A stretch of 55,350 nt of DNA from Streptantibioticus parmotrematis (GTDB lineage Bacteria > Actinomycetota > Actinomycetes > Streptomycetales > Streptomycetaceae). The stretch lies in assembly GCF_019890615.1 (NCBI RefSeq), contig NZ_JAINVZ010000033.1, forward strand, positions 1-55,350, read 5' to 3'. Under the pieces are notes generated by a model. It saw nothing but the letters and a program-made list of their open reading frames with translations. It was not told the origin of the DNA and made no database searches. Position 1 is the stretch's first letter, and each line of letters begins with the position of its first letter. Position numbers and translations under genes: made by a program. Below are positions 12,851 through 22,890 of this stretch, piece by piece.

Positions 12851-13102
12851 ATGAAGCCCGGCATCCACCCCGAGTACCGGCCGGTCGTCTTCCGCGACCG
12901 GACCGCCGACTTCGCCTTCCTCACCCGCTCCACGGCGACCAGCGACCACACCGTCGAGTGGGAGGACGGCCGCACCTACCCGGTCATCGACGTCGAGATC
13001 TCCTCCGCCAGCCACCCCTTCTACACCGGCACCCAACGCGTCCTCGACACGGCCGGCCGAGTCGAACGCTTCGAACGCCGCTATGGGCGCGGGTCGCGGT
13101 GA
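12851..13102 (+). CDS. rpmE2: 50S ribosomal protein L31 type B (zinc-independent)
   Basis: An 83-aa type B L31: [16 protein letters not shown], then [35 protein letters not shown] and [10 protein letters not shown]. The CxxC pairs of the zinc-binding form are missing. AGGAGAG precedes the ATG by about nine bases. It is expressed divergently from cysteine-free L32 and CobW. Its 3' end overlaps the convergent gene at 13081 by 22 bases. Confidence 0.95.
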
Positions 13103-13464
13103 CGGAGGAGGTCGATTCCTCCGTTCCAGGGCAGTTCGCCCTCGAAGTCGCAGGCGCAGACGGCACGATCGCCGGACTCCCACAGCGCGCGGAGGATCAT
13201 GCCGACCGTCGCGACCATGACGTCGCGGTCCTGGTCCTCCTCGGCGTCGGCCTCCACGAGGACCGGCCACCGCACGAAGTCGTCTCCGGCCGGGAGGCCG
13301 AGGTGTGCGTCGGGGTTCCGGCGCACCTCCACGACCAGACCGCCCACGGTCATACCGTGCCGGCTGAAGGCCCCCTTCAGTACGGCGGCGAGTGTCGCCA
13401 TCACGGAGGCGGCCGTGCCCTGTTCGACGAACATCTTGCAGTAGAGGTACTGGTTGTCAGTCAC
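13081..13464 (-). CDS. Conserved-looking small protein of unknown function
   Basis: A 127-aa soluble protein I do not recognise. It has an alternating strand/helix layout: [91 protein letters not shown]. The pattern (a beta strand, a long helix, then an acidic strand WPVLVEAD) is reminiscent of small immunity or contact-dependent-inhibition-like folds, but this is only an impression and no toxin gene is adjacent. Its coding pattern is normal for the window. It converges on rpmE2 with a 22-base overlap. Confidence 0.6.
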
Positions 13465-13717
13465 GAGCGGGGACTCCGGTGAGTGTCCGATGGTCGAGCG
13501 GGGGCCCAGGAAGCCGGGTCATGGTCCGGCGACGCGCGCGTCGTCCGGCGCCGCTTGCCGAGGGTGGAGGAGCAGCGGTCACGTCCGGCCCTCGCTGGGC
13601 GACGGCCGGGCCGTCAGGAGGCCAAGCACGTCGCCGGGTTCGCGCGTCGCGTGGCGCGGACCCGCGAGCAGTTGCGTGTCGCGGATGCGCCCACGCGGGC
13701 GCGGTGCGGCGGTCGGC

Positions 13718-14104
13718 TCAGCCCTGGTTGCCCAGAGGCCAGCCCGCGTCGCTGACCACCGTCCAGTCCCCGGACTGGACCGTGGGGACATAAGCGTCGC
13801 CCTCGGCAGTGACAGTGGTGCTCTGGCAGTCGTTCCCCGAGTAGGCGATCACGTTGACCGTCCCGGCCCACCAGTACCCGTACTCCTTGTTCTCGTGGAC
13901 CGGGGTGGCGAAGCACCGGCTGACGTACGAGCCGCTCTGGTTGTAGCCGTTGACGCGGATGGTGTTCGCCACCCCCAGCGAGTCGACGAAGTCGATCTGC
14001 TGGCCGCCGCTGCCGGCGAAGGCCGGGCCGGCCGATACGGCCAGGCCCGCGAATACGAGCGCGGAAGCGGTGATCCCCGACGCGATACGGCGGTTGACGG
14101 ACAA
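13718..14104 (-). CDS. Small secreted protein, unknown function
   Basis: A 128-aa precursor with a classic Sec signal: basic N-region (NRRIAS), hydrophobic core (about 10-26) and cleavage after AFA near residue 30. The mature part (about 98 aa) has two cysteines (SRCFATP and GNDCQST), probably one disulfide, and many aromatic and Gly residues (EYGYWWAGTVNVIAY). The best start is TTG at 14104, because GGAGG lies five bases upstream; an earlier in-frame TTG at 14116 lies across that ribosome site. The neighbours do not reveal a job. I do not recognise the family. Confidence 0.7.
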   Translation of the reverse strand: MSVNRRIASGITASALVFAGLAVSAGPAFAGSGGQQIDFVDSLGVANTIRVNGYNQSGSYVSRCFATPVHENKEYGYWWAGTVNVIAYSGNDCQSTTVTAEGDAYVPTVQSGDWTVVSDAGWPLGNQG

Positions 14105-14259
14105 GGCATCCTCCAATAGGTGTGATCTTGATACTGGTCCCGCAGGTCGGCCGGGTGAGGTTCAGCGGACAAAAGCGCGTGGCCGGTCGGCCCGCGGCGC
14201 GACTCCCCGCCTCCCGTCACGGCCGCCGCACCCGATGCGACTCCCGCGAAGGGGCCCGC

Positions 14260-15783
<1,524 letters not shown>

Positions 15784-15791
15784 GGTCGGCC

Positions 15792-16532
15792 TCAGACCTT
15801 CAGGCCGTTGCGGGTGACGTACCAGTTGTGGAAGCCGATCAGGCCGCCGAGCATGGCCAGCCAGAGCAGGGTGCTGGTCAGCGGGAAGGCGTCCACCGGG
15901 ATCGTGTACACGAGCACGACCCGCAGCACGGCGTCGAGCAGGAAGACCACGCCCCACACCGCGGTGAGCGCGCGAAGGTGGTGGCGGAACGTCGGCTCGG
16001 TGTCCCAGCGCGCCTCCCACTCGGCCAGGCCGGCCTCGCCGATCTTGGCGATGACGATGCCGCGCGAGGAGGTCATGATGAACGGCCGCCGCGTGAACAA
16101 GGTGCCCAGCACCCAGCAGCCGATCGCGGCGGTGATCCAGCTGTCCCGCAGGTTCAGCACCCGCGGGCTGCCGGTGACCATGGACAGCAGGGTGGCGACG
16201 ACCACCAGACTCAGCGAGAACAGGGCCATCGCGTTCACGCGCCGCTGCCGCACGATGCCGTAGACGATCCACGGCACCAGCATCAGGCCGCTCGCGACCA
16301 GCGCGAGCCACTGGCCTGTGCCGGCGGCGCGCAGTCCGTAGTACGAGCCGATCGGCAGGACGAGTTCGAAGAACAGCTGGGAGCCGATCTGCCGGCGCAG
16401 CGCGGTGGTGCCGCGCCGGGCCTCGGCGGCCGCGGCGGCCTGGGTCTGTGCGGTGGCGGACTCGGTGCCCGGGTTCGGGTCGGTCTGCGCGCGCGGGTTC
16501 GGGTCGGTCTGCGGTGCCTGGCTGGTGGCCAT
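15792..16532 (-). CDS. VC0807-like polytopic membrane protein
   Basis: A 246-aa inner-membrane protein. The N-terminal 40 residues are disordered with a repeated TDPNP motif. Then come about six hydrophobic segments: LFFELVLPIGSYYGL, WLALVASGLMLVPWIVYG, ALFSLSLVVVATLLSM, DSWITAAIGCWVLGTLF, LTAVWGVVFLLDAVLRVVLVY and TSTLLWLAMLGGLIGFH. The GSPRVLNLRDSW loop and RRPFIMTSS resemble VC0807/DUF3159-type proteins of unknown function. The ATG at 16532 follows a G-run ribosome site. It is co-directional with the upstream TetR gene and the downstream monooxygenase gene. Confidence 0.75.
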   Translation of the reverse strand: MATSQAPQTDPNPRAQTDPNPGTESATAQTQAAAAAEARRGTTALRRQIGSQLFFELVLPIGSYYGLRAAGTGQWLALVASGLMLVPWIVYGIVRQRRVNAMALFSLSLVVVATLLSMVTGSPRVLNLRDSWITAAIGCWVLGTLFTRRPFIMTSSRGIVIAKIGEAGLAEWEARWDTEPTFRHHLRALTAVWGVVFLLDAVLRVVLVYTIPVDAFPLTSTLLWLAMLGGLIGFHNWYVTRNGLKV

Positions 16533-16600
16533 GGTGTGTGTCCCCCCGTGAGTCGTGTCGATGGTCGTGCTGTCGTCCCCCGTGCGTGTCGCGTGGGGGG

Positions 16601-17242
16601 TCAGGGCGTCTTCCTGGTGGCGCGGTCGAACAGGTCCGCGAGCTCGCGGCCGGTGGCGCAGGCGTCGAGGCCGGGCTCGTCGCGGGCGCGGCGCACCACG
16701 TCGTCGATCGCGGCCCGGATCGCCCGCAGCATCACCCACGGGTCGAAGTCGCAGAACTCGCCCGCCGCCTGCCCTTTGCGGACCTGCTCGACCTGGAAGG
16801 CGAGGATCGCCTCCATCCCTTCCGTGAACGCGACCATGCCGGGGTCGCCGCCGCGCAGGTTGCCCAGGACCTCGCCGATCGCGGCGAGGTGGTTCGGGTA
16901 CTCGGCGAGCAGGTCGAGGTTGCCCTCGATGGAGGCGCGCAGCCGGGCCGCGTAGCTCTCGTGGGCCTCGATCCGGGGCCGCAGGTAGCCGTCCGCGACC
17001 CGCATCGCCTCGGCGACGACCTCGCGCATCAGGTCGTCCCGCCCGTCGAAGTGGTAGGAGATCATCCCCGTGCTGCTCAGCCCCGCGCGCTGCGCGATCT
17101 TCGCGAACGAGGCCCGCTGGTAGCCGACTTCGGCGATCACGTCGATCGCCGAGGCGACGATCTGGGCGCGGCGGCCCGTCTCCGTGAAGGACCTCGCCCG
17201 CCCTTCAGCCTGTTGCTTGCTCGCGCTGTTTCTTGCTCGCAT
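16601..17242 (-). CDS. TetR family transcriptional regulator
   Basis: A 213-aa repressor. The HTH is at about 25-70: RRAQIVASAIDVIAEVGYQRASFAKIAQRAGLSSTGMISYHFDGRDDLM. The C-terminal domain shows NLDLLAEYPNHLAAIGEVLGNLRGG and ends RATRKTP. The start ATG at 17242 lies 20 bases from a palindrome (17262-17277) that is a likely operator. It is the first of three co-directional genes (TetR, membrane protein, monooxygenase) and may be autoregulated together with them. Confidence 0.88.
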   Translation of the reverse strand: MRARNSASKQQAEGRARSFTETGRRAQIVASAIDVIAEVGYQRASFAKIAQRAGLSSTGMISYHFDGRDDLMREVVAEAMRVADGYLRPRIEAHESYAARLRASIEGNLDLLAEYPNHLAAIGEVLGNLRGGDPGMVAFTEGMEAILAFQVEQVRKGQAAGEFCDFDPWVMLRAIRAAIDDVVRRARDEPGLDACATGRELADLFDRATRKTP

Positions 17243-17261
17243 AAGCAAACCGTAGCGGTGT

Positions 17262-17277
17262 TTGCTCGCCCGAGCAA
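17262..17277. promoter_or_regulatory. Palindromic operator upstream of tetR
   Basis: Arms TTGCTCG and CGAGCAA around a CC centre. Additional TTGCTCG half-sites occur inside the start of the tetR gene (near 17213 and 17232). The position just upstream of the start codon suggests autorepression. Confidence 0.6.
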
Positions 17278-17312
17278 GAGGGGTGGTGGTGTCACGCGTT
17301 CGGGTGCCCACG

Positions 17313-18140
17313 TCAGACCTCGCTCCGGCCCCAGGCGGTGACGGTCACCTTGTCGCCGACGCGGATCCGGCCGGGGCGCAGCACCGCGTACTTCACTCCG
17401 AACGCGACCCCGCCCGCCGCTGCCCGTCGGTAGCCGGCCAGTGTGCGCAGCGGCTCGGGGCCGTCGCGCAAGCCGCTGCGCTGGTCGACCATGACGACGG
17501 CGCAGCGGATCGCCGGTTTGGCGTAGCCGAGTTCGGCGTCGGCGATCGTGATTCGGTGGGCGCGGTCCTCGGTGTGGGGTTCGTCCCAGCCGTCGACGAC
17601 CAGGTTGGCCCGGAAGCGGTCCTCCGGCACGGCGGGGGCACCGTTGTCGGCGAGCTTCTTGCCGAGCAGGTCGAGGGTGGCGCGGGACAGGACATGCAGC
17701 GCGCAACTGTCGGCGTAGCCGGAGGTGCCGGGCACGCGGCCGTCCGTGACCCGGTCGTGCTCGGGTGGCACCCGGACCAGGCGGCTCGGCGCTCGCAGGC
17801 ACTCGGACAGCCACCGGGCGGCGGCCTCCCCTTGGTCGATGCCGTGGAAGGGCTGCCCGAACAGGTCCACCGGGCGACGGGGGCCCGTGGTGTCCACGGC
17901 TATGTCGAGTGGCGGCAGGCCGTCGGCTCGGAGGGTCAGGAGTTCGCCACCGGGGGCGACGGCGGGTCGCACGAGGGCCAGACGGGGGTCGCGGCGCTGG
18001 GTGCGGAAGACGCCCTCGGGGCTGGTGACCATGAAGCTGCGGTCGTGTGCGAGCCCGGCCGCGGTCAGCACGGCCTGGTCGGGGTGTGCAGCGGCTGCTC
18101 CCTTGACGGGGAAGTACGAGAGCGAGGCCACGTGAGGCAT
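17313..18140 (-). CDS. MOSC domain protein (mARC-like)
   Basis: A 275-aa protein with an N-terminal MOSC beta-barrel (MPHVASLSYFPVKG, DRSFMVTSPEG, TQRRDPRLALVRP) and a C-terminal MOSC domain. The candidate molybdenum-cofactor cysteine is Cys213 in AIRCAVVMVDQRSG, followed by LRTLAGYRR and FGVKYAVLRPGRIRVGD. Family members reduce N-hydroxylated compounds or carry sulfur; no redox partner domain is fused here. The ATG at 18140 overlaps an ATG on the other strand, so the divergent AraC gene probably starts further in. Confidence 0.87.
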   Translation of the reverse strand: MPHVASLSYFPVKGAAAAHPDQAVLTAAGLAHDRSFMVTSPEGVFRTQRRDPRLALVRPAVAPGGELLTLRADGLPPLDIAVDTTGPRRPVDLFGQPFHGIDQGEAAARWLSECLRAPSRLVRVPPEHDRVTDGRVPGTSGYADSCALHVLSRATLDLLGKKLADNGAPAVPEDRFRANLVVDGWDEPHTEDRAHRITIADAELGYAKPAIRCAVVMVDQRSGLRDGPEPLRTLAGYRRAAAGGVAFGVKYAVLRPGRIRVGDKVTVTAWGRSEV

Positions 18141-18252
18141 GCGGACCATCCAGGGCAGTAGGTGCATCGGTCTCGGCGTCTCCGAAGATCTCTCGAACGG
18201 AGGCGGGCCGGGGCCGAGCCGCCGTCCCGCGGCGACAGTAGAGTTGGCGCCC

Positions 18253-19044
18253 GTGATCGGTCGGGGGCGCATCAGCATCAGTTACGAGGCGCGGGTGAGC
18301 ATCGTGATCCCGCTCGCGGCCGGGACCGGTCTGCCGTCGCACAGCCATCCGCAGCACCAGTTGGCCTGGGCGCCGACCGGCTTGCTGACGCTGGAGGTGG
18401 GCGGGTTCCGCTGGGTCGTGCAGCGATCGCGTGCGCTGTGGATTCCGGGGGGTGTCGATCACGCGGTCCTTCCGGGGTCGTCGAGCTCGATGCTCTCGGT
18501 GTACTTCGAACCGGACGACTGCCCGCGGGGCTGGGATTCCCCGACCGTGCTCGACGCCTCCGGACTGGTGGGGCCGCTGCTGTCCCACCTCGCGGATCTC
18601 GGCGACGCCCCGGATGCCGCGAACCGCCACGCCCGGGCCACGGCCGTGCTGTGGGACCTGATGAGGCCGGTGCCGGTCGCCACACTCGCGGTCATCCTTC
18701 CCACCGACCCGCTGGCGCTGCGGATCGCGCTGGCGCTGCGTCAGGATCCGGCCGACTCCCGGGACCTGGAGGACTGGGGCCGCGAGGTCGGTGCCTCGCC
18801 CCGCACCCTCTCGCGCCGGTTCCGCGCCGAGACCGGGGTGGGTTTCGCGAGTTGGCGGACCTTGCAGCGGCTCGACGCGGCGCTGCCCCTGCTGGGCAGC
18901 GGGCAACCCGTCGCGCGGGTCGCCCGCGCGGTCGGGTACAGGACCGCGAGCGCCTTCATCGCGGCGTTCCGCCGGGAGATCGGCACCACTCCCGCCGCGT
19001 ACTTCGCCGCGAGCGGTGCCGAGCCCGACGTCACACCCCCGTGA
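18253..19044 (+). CDS. AraC family transcriptional regulator (cupin + HTH)
   Basis: A 263-aa protein when started at the GTG at 18253; starting at the ATG at 18139 adds 38 non-conserved residues and would leave no promoter between it and the MOSC gene. The N-terminal cupin shows GLPSHSHPQHQLAWAPTG and RALWIPGGVDHAV; the C-terminal AraC HTH shows RTLSRRFRAETGVGFASW and VARAVGYRTASAFIAAFRREIGTTPAAYF. The architecture resembles NimR-type regulators, which control a neighbouring exporter. The convergent 14-TM exporter 34 bases downstream is the obvious candidate target. Confidence 0.87.
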   Translation: MIGRGRISISYEARVSIVIPLAAGTGLPSHSHPQHQLAWAPTGLLTLEVGGFRWVVQRSRALWIPGGVDHAVLPGSSSSMLSVYFEPDDCPRGWDSPTVLDASGLVGPLLSHLADLGDAPDAANRHARATAVLWDLMRPVPVATLAVILPTDPLALRIALALRQDPADSRDLEDWGREVGASPRTLSRRFRAETGVGFASWRTLQRLDAALPLLGSGQPVARVARAVGYRTASAFIAAFRREIGTTPAAYFAASGAEPDVTPP

Positions 19045-19078
19045 GTCGCCGCTCGGCCGCCCGCCGCCCGGGCACCCG

Positions 19079-20662
19079 TCATTTCGTACGGCCCCGGTCG
19101 AGCGTGAAGGCGATCACCGCGAGGAGCACGGAGACCACCGCGACGACCGTGGCCAGGGTCGTCACGGAGTTCAGCGCGTCGATCGACGCGTGGTCGGCGA
19201 CGCGGGTGAGGGCGGGCACGCTGTCGCGGAACCGCGGCGGCACCGCCGCGACCACCTGGTGACCGGAGGCGGCCCCGAGTTGACGAACGAACTCCTGCTT
19301 CAGGTCCTGGGGCAGTGAACCGGCCCCGGGGAGGGTGGCGAGCCCGGAGGCGGCGTCGCGCCGGGCGACGTGGCTGAAGACCGAGCCGAGTCCCGCGATG
19401 CCGACGGCCATGCCGACCTGCCGGAGCGTGCCGAAGGTGGCGCTGGCCATGCCGGCGTTCTCCTGGGAGGCGAAGGTCAGCGATGCGGCCTGGTTGGCCG
19501 CGGTGATCGCGCCGAGACCGACGCCGCCGACGATCTCACCGGGCAGGAAGTAGGTCCAGCTGTCATGGTCGGCGAACCCGCCGAGCAGGAACATGCCCAC
19601 GGCGACCAGTCCCATGGTGGCCGTGAGCGAGACCGGGACCGGCAGCCTCTTGGCGAGGATCGCGGTCAGCGGTGCGGCGATCATCGCGCCGATGCTGATC
19701 GGGATCACCCGCAGGCCCATCTGCAGCGGGGTGTAGCCGAGCGTGCCGATCAGGAACAGGGAGAGGTAGGTGGTCGCGGCCATCAGCGTGGCCATGTGCC
19801 CGGCCGACACGATCGCGGTGCCGACGAAGCCGGGCTTGCGCGCCATGGCGATGTCGAGCAAGGGGTGCTCGGCCCCTCGCACCTGCCAGGCCAGAAATCC
19901 GGCCAGCAGCACGGCCGCGGTGACCAGCAGGGCGATCACGGACGACGACGTCCAGCCGAGCGCGCTGCTGCGGGTCACCGCGAACACCCCGGCCACCAGG
20001 CCGCCGGTGAGCAGCAGTGAGCCGAGCCCGTCCGCCCGGCGGCCGCGGGCCCGCGGTGGCTCGGGCATCCTCAGCGCGGCCAGGACCAGGACCGCGGCGC
20101 CGATCGGCACGTTGACGGTGAAGATCGAGCGCCAGCCGAACGCGGTGACGAGCGCGCCGCCGACGACCGGGCCGAGGACGGTCGCCCCCGCCATCACCGC
20201 GCCGTAGACGCCGATCGTCTTCGCCCGCGGACCGGGCTCGGGAAACGCGACCGACAGCAGCGGCAACGCGGTGGCGAAGAGCATGGCGGCACCGACACCC
20301 TGGACCGCCCGCAGGACGTCGAGTTCCACGACGGTGCCGACCAGCGTCAGCGCCAGTGACGCGCCGGTGAAGACCGCCATGCCGGTCAGGAACATCCGCT
20401 TGCGCCCGAACCGGTCCCCGAGCGTGGCGAAGGTGAGCATGAAGCCGGCCAGCGGGATCGAGTAGGCGTCGACGACCCACTGCAGCGCGTCGATGGAGGC
20501 GTTGAAGTGCGCGCGGATACCGGCGAGCGCGGCGGTGACGACGGTCGCGTCGAGCATCAGCATGAAGATCGCGACGCAGACCAGGAACAGCACGGTCCGG
20601 GGTCTGCCGGGTGGCGCGTCCGCGGGTGGCGTCCCACGCGTGGTCGTCTCGGTCAGGGACAT
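19079..20662 (-). CDS. MFS multidrug exporter, DHA2 (14-TM) family
   Basis: A 527-aa membrane antiporter. Motif A is LGDRFGRKRMFLTG, the motif C-like segment is GATVLGPVVGGALVTAFGWR, followed by SIFTVNVPIGA. About fourteen hydrophobic segments run through the chain. The motif near TM1, IFMLMLDATVVTAAL, is typical of DHA2 proton/drug antiporters. AAGGGGG lies upstream of the ATG at 20662. It is probably controlled by the convergent AraC regulator and may export a compound related to the nearby monooxygenase, though nothing shows this directly. Confidence 0.92.
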   Translation of the reverse strand: MSLTETTTRGTPPADAPPGRPRTVLFLVCVAIFMLMLDATVVTAALAGIRAHFNASIDALQWVVDAYSIPLAGFMLTFATLGDRFGRKRMFLTGMAVFTGASLALTLVGTVVELDVLRAVQGVGAAMLFATALPLLSVAFPEPGPRAKTIGVYGAVMAGATVLGPVVGGALVTAFGWRSIFTVNVPIGAAVLVLAALRMPEPPRARGRRADGLGSLLLTGGLVAGVFAVTRSSALGWTSSSVIALLVTAAVLLAGFLAWQVRGAEHPLLDIAMARKPGFVGTAIVSAGHMATLMAATTYLSLFLIGTLGYTPLQMGLRVIPISIGAMIAAPLTAILAKRLPVPVSLTATMGLVAVGMFLLGGFADHDSWTYFLPGEIVGGVGLGAITAANQAASLTFASQENAGMASATFGTLRQVGMAVGIAGLGSVFSHVARRDAASGLATLPGAGSLPQDLKQEFVRQLGAASGHQVVAAVPPRFRDSVPALTRVADHASIDALNSVTTLATVVAVVSVLLAVIAFTLDRGRTK

Positions 20663-20890
20663 GGATCCCCCTTTGAGGAAAGGGCGTTGAGGTGGATGCG
20701 GAGAGACCGCGAAGAGCGGCCGGCGCCGCATCAGCCACGCTAGGGACCGACCGGGCTGACGGGAACGGCTTACCTGGACAGCCGATATCGCACAGCGGAC
20801 AACCTTGCCCGCCCCGCGGTTCCGAAGGTCCGGCGGGCGGACACGACGAGGGTGTGCCGGGCGGTGGCGTCACCACGCGCCCGTCGGGTC
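20663..20890. other. Intergenic region upstream of the exporter
   Basis: This is the first part of a gene-free stretch of about 340 bases between the exporter and tRNA-Ala. It must carry the exporter promoter on the minus strand. I see no convincing gene or strong hairpin here; the remainder holds the decamer repeats and the tRNA terminator, listed separately. Confidence 0.5.
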
Positions 20891-20950
20891 GTGACAACGC
20901 CAATAAACGCCAACAAGCGCTGACAACCGCCGACAACTACTGACAAACAC
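20891..20950. repeat. Six degenerate 10-bp direct repeats
   Basis: Six consecutive decamers follow the pattern y-r-A-c/t-A-A-n-C/A-G/A-C, the best being TGACAACCGC. They are in exact 10-base register and much richer in A than the surroundings. They end just before the terminator of the tRNA-Ala gene. Possible roles are protein-binding sites on one helix face, integrase arm-type sites left at a tRNA, or the exporter's upstream control region. Confidence 0.6.
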
Positions 20951-20996
20951 AGAGAGGCCCTCCGAACCACGTTTCCGCAGTTCGGAGGGCCTCTCT
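20951..20996 (-). terminator. Terminator of tRNA-Ala
   Basis: 17-bp perfect arms (20951-20967 and 20980-20996) with a 12-base loop lie six bases beyond the tRNA 3' end, followed on the minus strand by a short T-rich run. Confidence 0.85.
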
Positions 20997-21001
20997 CGAT
21001 G

Positions 21002-21074
21002 TGGAGCTAAGGGGATTTGAACCCCTGACCCCTTGCATGCCATGCAAGTGCTCTACCAGCTGAGCTATAGCCCC
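21002..21074 (-). tRNA. tRNA-Ala (GGC)
   Basis: A 73-base gene whose 7-bp acceptor stem includes the alanine identity pair G3-U70. The anticodon loop ATGGCAT lies within the stem CTTGC/GCAAG, giving anticodon GGC, and the T-loop is GTTCAAATC. The discriminator base is A; CCA is not encoded. A second copy with the same anticodon lies at 22818. Confidence 0.95.
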
Positions 21075-21266
21075 AGGTCTCCGTCGGCCGGAGCAAGGCC
21101 CGGCGACTGGGTAAACATTACACGGACCCGGGGGCGTTTCGCCAAATCCATTGGGGGGAGAGGCAGCCGCCCGGAAGCCGTCGGGGGCGGTCGGGACGGA
21201 CTGCTGTGACGGGGTGGGTCGGGGTACTGTCAGGAGGCTGTGTCCGTCCACCCAGGAGCCGCCGCC

Positions 21267-22622
21267 GTGACCGCGTCGCAACCCATCGCCGAAGGCAGAC
21301 CGAGGGGCGGGATACGGGGACCGGTGGCACGGCGGTCGACCGCGCTGGCGGCGGTCGTGTGCCTGGTGTCGTTCACCGGCTTCTGGATCGCGCAGCGGGC
21401 CGCCAACGTCTCCATGATCGACCTGATGGTCTACCGCGCCGAGGGCTGGACCATCAGGACCGGCGGTGACCTGTACACGATGGTGGCCACCCAGGCCAAG
21501 CTGCCGACCACCTACCCGCCCTTCGGCGCCATGATCTTCACGCCGCTCACCTGGCTCGGCGTCCCCGCGATGCGCACCGTGGCCACCGCCGCCAACCTGG
21601 TCCTGCTGCTCGTCGTCGTCCACCTGTCGCTGCGGCTGGTCGGCCGGCCGCACCGGATACCGCACGCGGCGGCCACCTTCGCCGTCTCCGCGGGCGCCGT
21701 GTGGTGCGAACCGGTGTGGACGACCCTGCGGTACGGGCAGATCAACCTGCTGCTCGCGGTCCTGGTGCTGTGGGACCTGACCCGGCGCTCCGGGCACCGC
21801 TGGGCGGGCATCGGCATCGGCGTGGCCGCCGGGATCAAGCTGACCCCGGCGCTGTTCGCGGTGTTCCTGGCGCTGGTCGGTCTCGTCCAGGGCTGGCGCG
21901 GGCTGCGCGCCGGGCGGCGGGTGTGGAACCCGGCGCTGCGCCGGGCCTGCGTGGCGGCCGCCGCGTTCGCCGTCACCGCGGGCACGGCCGCGCTCGTGCT
22001 GCCGCGCGACTCGCACAACTTCTGGACCCGGATGATCTTCGAGGCCAACCGTGTCGGCCACGTCGAGGACACCGCCAACCAGTCGGTGCGCGGCGTCGTC
22101 GCCCGCGTCCTGCACTCCACCGACCCGGGCCGCTCCTGGCTGCTGTCGGCCGCCGCGATCGGGCTGCTCGGGCTCGCCGTGGCCGTCGCGGCGGCACTGG
22201 CGGGCGACCGGCTCCCGTCCGGGTCGGCCTGGGCGGCCTGCGCCTGCGCCGCGACCGCGCTGCTGGTGAGCCCGATCTCCTGGTCGCACCACTGGGTGTG
22301 GTGCGTGCCGATGGTGCTGCTGCTGGCGTCGGAGGCGCTGCGGCGCGGGCAGTTGCGGTGGCGGATCGGCGCCGGGGCGGCCGGGCTGGTGTTCTGCAGC
22401 TACGTGATCTGGGCGGTGCCGCACGGCCTCGGCCGCCCCGAACTGCGCCAGAACGCGGGGCAGATGCTGCTGTCGGCCGCCTACCCGGCGGTCGGGCTGG
22501 CCTTCCTGGCGCTGACCGGGGTACAGGCGGTACGGGCACTGCGCAGGCCCCCGAGCCGCCCGCTCGGCGGCGCGAACCGCACCCCCCGCACCGGCGACTA
22601 CGTGTACGCGGCGGACCGCTAG
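21267..22622 (+). CDS. GT87 (DUF2029) polyprenol-phosphate mannosyltransferase-like membrane protein
   Basis: A 451-aa polytopic protein of the GT-C type family GT87 (PimE-like alpha-1,2-mannosyltransferases), which uses polyprenyl-phosphate mannose outside the membrane. Features are the first TM STALAAVVCLVSFTGFW, then VSMIDLMVYRAEGW with the Asp expected after TM1, TYPPFGAMIFTPLTWLG, QINLLLAVLVLWDL and AGIGIGVAAGIKLTPALF, and a SWSHHWVW motif. GTG at 21267 is chosen because AGGAG lies eight bases upstream; an earlier GTG at 21240 is only two bases from its GGAGG. It lies between the two tRNA-Ala genes. Confidence 0.85.
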   Translation: MTASQPIAEGRPRGGIRGPVARRSTALAAVVCLVSFTGFWIAQRAANVSMIDLMVYRAEGWTIRTGGDLYTMVATQAKLPTTYPPFGAMIFTPLTWLGVPAMRTVATAANLVLLLVVVHLSLRLVGRPHRIPHAAATFAVSAGAVWCEPVWTTLRYGQINLLLAVLVLWDLTRRSGHRWAGIGIGVAAGIKLTPALFAVFLALVGLVQGWRGLRAGRRVWNPALRRACVAAAAFAVTAGTAALVLPRDSHNFWTRMIFEANRVGHVEDTANQSVRGVVARVLHSTDPGRSWLLSAAAIGLLGLAVAVAAALAGDRLPSGSAWAACACAATALLVSPISWSHHWVWCVPMVLLLASEALRRGQLRWRIGAGAAGLVFCSYVIWAVPHGLGRPELRQNAGQMLLSAAYPAVGLAFLALTGVQAVRALRRPPSRPLGGANRTPRTGDYVYAADR

Positions 22623-22764
22623 CGCCTCCCGGCCGGGCCTCTACGGAGACTGAACGGCGGCGCGACGGCCCGAAGGGAACCGCCCCGGCCCACCCCGACC
22701 GCCCGGAAGGGGGGTGCGGGTGGCGAAGCCTCCGCCGCCCGCGGACGAAGTCCGCGGAAGAACG

Positions 22765-22818
22765 ACAAAGGCGAGGGGTCCGCGTTGTCCGCGGACACAC
22801 CTCGCCTCTCGCCTTTGT
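22765..22818 (-). terminator. Terminator of the second tRNA-Ala
   Basis: 11-bp perfect arms ACAAAGGCGAG (22765-22775) and its complement (22808-22818), with an inner pairing AGGCGAGG/CCTCGCCT. The outer arm touches the tRNA discriminator base, so the hairpin begins immediately at the mature 3' end. Confidence 0.75.
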
Positions 22819-22890
22819 GGAGCTAAGGAGAATTGAACTCCTGACCTCCTGCATGCCATGCAGGCGCTCTACCAACTGAGCTATAGCCCC
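22818..22890 (-). tRNA. tRNA-Ala (GGC), second copy
   Basis: Same length, acceptor stem with G3-U70 and anticodon GGC as the gene at 21002. It differs by compensated changes in the anticodon stem (CCTGC/GCAGG) and T-stem (CAGGAG-side pairs), so it is a diverged isoacceptor copy and not a recent duplicate. Confidence 0.95.

Follow-up and report, generated by a model that had tools for sequence, protein, structure and literature searches.

Where the conserved block around a tRNA-Ala gene gives way to accessory genes, the genome of Streptantibioticus parmotrematis carries a short run of 10-bp repeats, and the locus raises the question of whether these repeats record the integration of an element at the tRNA, serve as an operator for the neighboring exporter gene, or have a more ordinary origin. 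The stretch of DNA analyzed, referred to here as the window, is 55,350 nucleotides long, and its relevant features are collected in Table 1. The last of these answers was favored: with a probability of roughly 0.7, the decamers form, at a hotspot edge, an imperfect tandem repeat that is young and confined to this genome, grew by slippage, and lacks a specific function.

Table 1. Features of the window discussed in the text.
Feature	Coordinates	Strand	Remarks
Ribosomal protein L31 gene (PF01197)	12851..13102	+	Sole called left-side gene common to the ICBB 8177 interval
Private segment of ~7.85 kb, from the L31 gene to the tRNA terminator	13106..20957		~375 bp instead in ICBB 8177
MFS exporter gene (PF07690)	19079..20662	-	Rare in the family
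Tandem array of about six imperfect 10-bp units (TTGTCRGYRG on the minus strand)	20891..20950	-	Period-10 scoring, shuffles
Array units in order: GTGACAACGC CAATAAACGC CAACAAGCGC TGACAACCGC CGACAACTAC TGACAAACAC		+	
Perfectly paired hairpin, the presumed intrinsic terminator of the tRNA-Ala gene	20951..20996	-	17-nt fully complementary arms
tRNA-Ala(GGC) gene, where the conserved core block begins	21001..21074	-	

The tandem array beside the tRNA-Ala terminator

The sequence-only reading had described six A-rich decamers abutting the tRNA-Ala terminator and keeping an exact 10-base register. The repeats are real and begin immediately past the terminator hairpin (-43.2 kcal/mol), which they abut directly; the part of the originally proposed range that spans 20951-20996 is the hairpin itself. 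The terminator ends in a T-rich tail, GTGTTTGTC, that extends into the first unit, and on the minus strand, past the hairpin and this short tail, the units read TTGTCAGTAG TTGTCGGCGG TTGTCAGCGC TTGTTGGCGT TTATTGGCGT. The six units match their own consensus at 5, 8, 8, 8, 7, and 8 of 10 positions, in order. Five of them keep the register, but a one-base shift displaces the core of the first plus-strand unit (the last on the minus strand), which makes "exact" a generous word; the richness in A holds, with 24 of the 60 plus-strand bases. Nowhere else in the window does period 10 score as high as at the array (37/50, the top among 55,291 positions), and the observed value of 34 was reached in none of 2,000 shuffles of 20663-20950 and in none of 5,000 shuffles of the array itself. 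Tandem Repeats Finder (TRF) also detected it, with low scores of 41 and 34. The decamers are thus non-random, degenerate head-to-tail units, repeated beyond chance as in a short tandem repeat.

A scan for sigma-70-type promoters found none, and in Rfam (E ≤ 1) the tRNA alone scored above its gathering threshold, the other five listed matches falling below theirs. Phage records, judged from the 20 listed out of 60, matched around the tRNA only. To the right, at 21001-22890, a GT87 glycosyltransferase gene sits between two tRNA-Ala(GGC) genes that are 89% identical, and an MFS gene also lies between paired tRNA-Ala genes in many GT87-related loci.

The variable interval between leuS and tRNA-Ala

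Synteny with the nearest relative, ICBB 8177, changes abruptly at the tRNA: all 24 called genes to its right are syntenic (82-100% identity), vs. one of 24 to its left (the L31 gene), with 22 lacking a match, in gene models that are our own GC3-based calls and therefore approximate, the left set having the wrong strand at 14518-16263 and missing an AraC gene. A separate search of the ICBB 8177 stretch with the FAD monooxygenase and AraC proteins gave no match, and the exporter found only a 32% paralogue in the syntenic stretch. DNA similarity to ICBB 8177, followed from the right, ends at 20958, within the terminator hairpin. The tRNA-Ala gene is therefore a sharp edge between a syntenic core and variable genes, which bears out the accessory/core junction proposed from the letters of the window.

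The wider pattern was assessed in the 80 best GT87 matches of the genome collection, a non-random sample in which 68 loci have a tRNA-Ala to the left of the gene; the other 12 were excluded from the leuS and flank counts. A common left-hand gene was present in 56 of the 68 loci by looser clustering, and its relative on contig C11 of the source genome matches leucyl-tRNA synthetase families. By a stricter motif test, leuS was found in 48 of the 68 loci, <700 bp from the tRNA in 21 and 2.4-5.4 kb away in 27; it went undetected by this test in the other 20, and some loci span <2.3 kb leftward. In ICBB 8177 the distance is 18 kb. In the source genome leuS lies on C11, 12.6 kb from the contig start, and since it is oriented as expected if C11 continues the left end of the window, the interval would measure at least 33.5 kb there, with an assembly gap between the two contigs. 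Taken across these loci, leuS is the usual left neighbor of tRNA-Ala, with a variable interval between them.

The two large intervals share the cobW promoter region, the L31 gene, a GH64 glucanase gene, and the genes adjacent to leuS, and differ in several separate blocks, which makes the interval a mosaic zone rather than one island. The private 7.85-kb segment holds FAD monooxygenase, TetR, MOSC, AraC, and MFS genes at a G+C content like that of its surroundings, and a C11-specific block of ~3.5 kb carries TetR, polyketide-cyclase-like, LysR, and dehydrogenase genes. ICBB 8177 has blocks of its own in ~1.2 kb beside L31, where an L28 gene and a frame of 139 residues lie, and in ~6.8 kb carrying genes for COX1, cytochrome b, MarR, and a chloride channel. 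In the same relative (L107 7443-9320), cobW is reduced to its start, and L32 and L28 genes lie nearby, beside L31; a search of that genome for left-side genes, which covered cobW and the exporter, gave for cobW, apart from a 39-residue start, matches of 36% and 49% along part of its length. The empty site suggested as a check thus has a counterpart in the compact loci of other species (21 of 48), while the nearest relative carries a different mosaic rather than a compact site. Among the papers listed by a literature search, no title dealt with a leuS-tRNA genomic island in Streptomyces.

The MFS exporter gene next to the array is itself rare. It was found at E ≤ 1e-110 in two of 394 family genomes, its own included (the other protein is 45% identical), and in one of 394 class genomes (138 genera), its own; plasmids held no exporter match at E ≤ 1e-100 and no match to 20660-20960 at E ≤ 0.01. 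Its matches in ICBB 8177 reach at most 39% among those listed, and in the 80 GT87 loci none exceeds 38%, the single left-side one (L071) having 31%. Conservation of the left-hand genes and repeats across Streptomyces, named beforehand as the outcome that would count against a boundary, is therefore not what these loci display, as none of the 68 flanks carries the array either. Gene exchange between leuS and tRNA-Ala in Streptomycetaceae is real, and distinct from it is a small repeat on the border of the zone, for which no mobile element has to be invoked.

Distribution of the repeat in other DNA

Where the window carries the array, ICBB 8177 has a single TTTGTCAG past the terminator. The pattern TTGTC-N5-TTGTC was absent from all 68 tRNA 3' flanks, from a 132-kb stretch of ICBB 8177, and from the first 20 kb of C11; judged from these flanks and from ICBB 8177, the array is a lineage-specific gain. 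A scan of the source genome (≤2 mismatches) returned one other array, of four copies, at C23:32085-32119 (L051 1499-1539), alike to the window array at 23 of 25 bases. This second array sits directly past the 3' end of priA, with no terminator tail ahead of it, and faces the 3' end of a convergent frame without a family match. The priA flank was readable in four of six relatives tried, and none of the four has the array; the flank of ICBB 8177 aligns, with the array missing. An array in another genus (G030) is alike to that of the window at 22 of 25 bases.

Among 200 family genomes, TTGTC-N5 triplets gave 28 hits at 21 sites in 19 genomes, vs. 27 hits in 20 genomes for the reversed control, and TTGTC arrays are thus no commoner than the control. 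The strict unit gave 12 hits in five genomes vs. none for its control, using a pattern derived from the arrays of the source genome, which itself supplied 3 of the 12; at ≤3 mismatches the figures were 40 hits vs. 20 for the control in 61 genomes. Period 10 is not special either. Each period between 7 and 16 is represented by short arrays in 228 kb of family DNA from which coding sequence was roughly masked: four arrays have period 10 (the window included), four each have periods 9 and 14, two each have periods 7, 11, 13, and 16, and one has period 8, whereas periods 12 and 15 gave 12 and 8 arrays, possibly from unmasked coding DNA; these counts exclude runs of N, which were seen as such for periods 9, 10, and 11 and, for the others, put at 5 from the shuffled counts.

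The individual arrays have mixed settings. Perfect TTGTCGGCGG arrays of seven and four TTGTC units (L057 1501-1565 and L058 1501-1535) occupy one orthologous site in two species, between a HAD-IB hydrolase gene and an Ssd gene. Repeats of GACA(A/G) type lie upstream of DrrA-type ABC exporter genes (L060 near 1500 and L234 near 1548), and the L230 array lies within an open frame. A scan of viral_contigs for the array returned 19 raw stretches.

Origin of the array and competing explanations

Under the favored reading, replication slippage would have expanded the T-rich terminator tail, TTTGTCAG, into the array on the spot, the units would then have diverged, and the array probably does nothing specific; the neighboring accessory genes would have come and gone through several separate insertions and deletions, not through one tRNA-targeted integration. 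Slippage is suggested by the copy number, which varies between species at the orthologous L057/L058 site, and by the mixed neighbors and unremarkable period, which resemble those of repeats born by slippage. The array is also like short intergenic, minisatellite-like tandem repeats in its imperfect, head-to-tail, non-coding, and lineage-specific units, and in the variable copy number at a comparable site; it is unlike them in lying exactly at a tRNA terminator and in having a near-identical unit at a second site of the genome. That near-identical priA array and the strict-unit excess of 12 vs. 0 hint at a favored sequence instead, although the former objection is weakened because the G030 array is about as alike, and the latter because the pattern is self-derived, a quarter of its hits come from the source genome, and the ratio drops to 40 vs. 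20. Better folding of the minus-strand array RNA than of its shuffles was likewise counted against the favored reading.

It is highly unlikely that the array is what an element integrated at the tRNA left behind, be it integrase arm sites (the earlier proposal) or another remnant, even though the tRNA position, the sharp synteny edge, and the compact leuS-tRNA sites of other species would suit such an event. AICEs are tRNA-targeted integrative elements of Streptomyces, and the locus is like them in that accessory genes adjoin the 3' side of the tRNA gene; unlike AICEs, it yielded no integrase and no duplicated tRNA end, and it differs from its relative piecemeal. Pfam integrase families were absent from the 27 left-side frames of the window (two of them alternative readings) and from the 10 C11 genes called ahead of leuS, the gap between window and C11 lying outside this search, and also from seven genes scanned from the ICBB 8177 interval; a PHROGs search with 10 proteins gave a single match to a DNA invertase, found in a TetR protein at E = 3e-4. 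A tRNA-derived direct repeat at the other end was likewise not found: tRNA matches reached at most 10 bp in the window's left 20.9 kb and at most 9 bp on C11 1-12750 (the gap again outside both), and the two ends of the 7.85-kb segment have only 8 bp in common. Several separate blocks, not one, distinguish the interval from that of ICBB 8177, and the arm-site reading is further weakened because a like array follows priA with no tRNA in the 3 kb of sequence covered there. Also doubtful is a transcription factor that binds the units head to tail on one helix face and controls the MFS exporter ~230 bp downstream. The 10-bp phasing, the A-rich units, the strand shared with the exporter, a candidate exporter -10 (TAGCGT at 20742), and the two similar arrays preceding DrrA-type exporter genes all fit such a regulator, for which BldC is the closest known model. 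BldC binds AT-rich direct repeats in varying numbers under a loose rule, an AT-rich tetramer followed at four or five bases by C or G, and its sites are not predictable from sequence (PMC6428758; PMC5859096); the consensus AATT(N3-4)(C/G) is not strictly needed (PMC6428758). The array is like the BldC operators of whiI and smeA in having AT-rich direct repeats, variable in number and spaced by about one helical turn, but its unit is TTGTCRGYRG, and the array contains neither AATT nor direct repeats of AATT(N3-4)(C/G). Moreover, the other array of the source genome precedes no exporter but follows the 3' end of priA and faces a convergent frame; the exporter is too rare for a conservation test; no such array was seen in the 551 bases adjoining the gene of the 45% relative (L206 2950-3500); and no fact in the analysis connects the array to the exporter.

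The RecA-NDp/PafBC half-site is TTGTCRGTG, within a promoter of the form TTGTCRGTG-N8-TANNNT, and the unit resembles it enough for the array to be read as tandem DNA-damage boxes, which is extremely unlikely. Five boxes of this type lie on the minus strand of the array, and in another genome (G049, L232 near 1508) a UvrB gene is closely preceded by three TTGTCRG-type boxes at 10-bp spacing, and TAATCT stands 8 bases past the last of them, as in a RecA-NDp promoter with tandem boxes. The likeness to such promoters ends with the half-site sequence TTGTCRG, because none of the five boxes in the array has TANNNT 8 bases on. As a RecA-NDp promoter, then, the array failed on spacing; promoter matches with ≤2 mismatches numbered 10 in the window, vs. 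3.2 expected, with none inside the array (for background, see PMC5087735; PMC6789036; PMC12340889; PMC2897130). There is also very little to commend an RNA element, a second hairpin backing up the tRNA terminator in read-through RNA: the minus-strand array RNA (20890-20950) does fold at -20.2 kcal/mol (z -3.7, 0 of 200 shuffles), but its pairing is rich in G-U with no equivalent fold as DNA, no T-run follows it, the priA array has no fold (z 0.38), and the first hairpin is very strong by itself. A common binding protein for such arrays is conceivable. Quite improbable is the specific version in which the tRNA-Ala and priA arrays are sites for one lineage-specific protein polymerizing head to tail on 10-bp TTGTCRGYRG units just beyond essential genes, where it might serve, for example, as a roadblock or chromosome-organizing site at transcript ends. 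Should the repeat bind a protein, the priA array would provide a ready control site.
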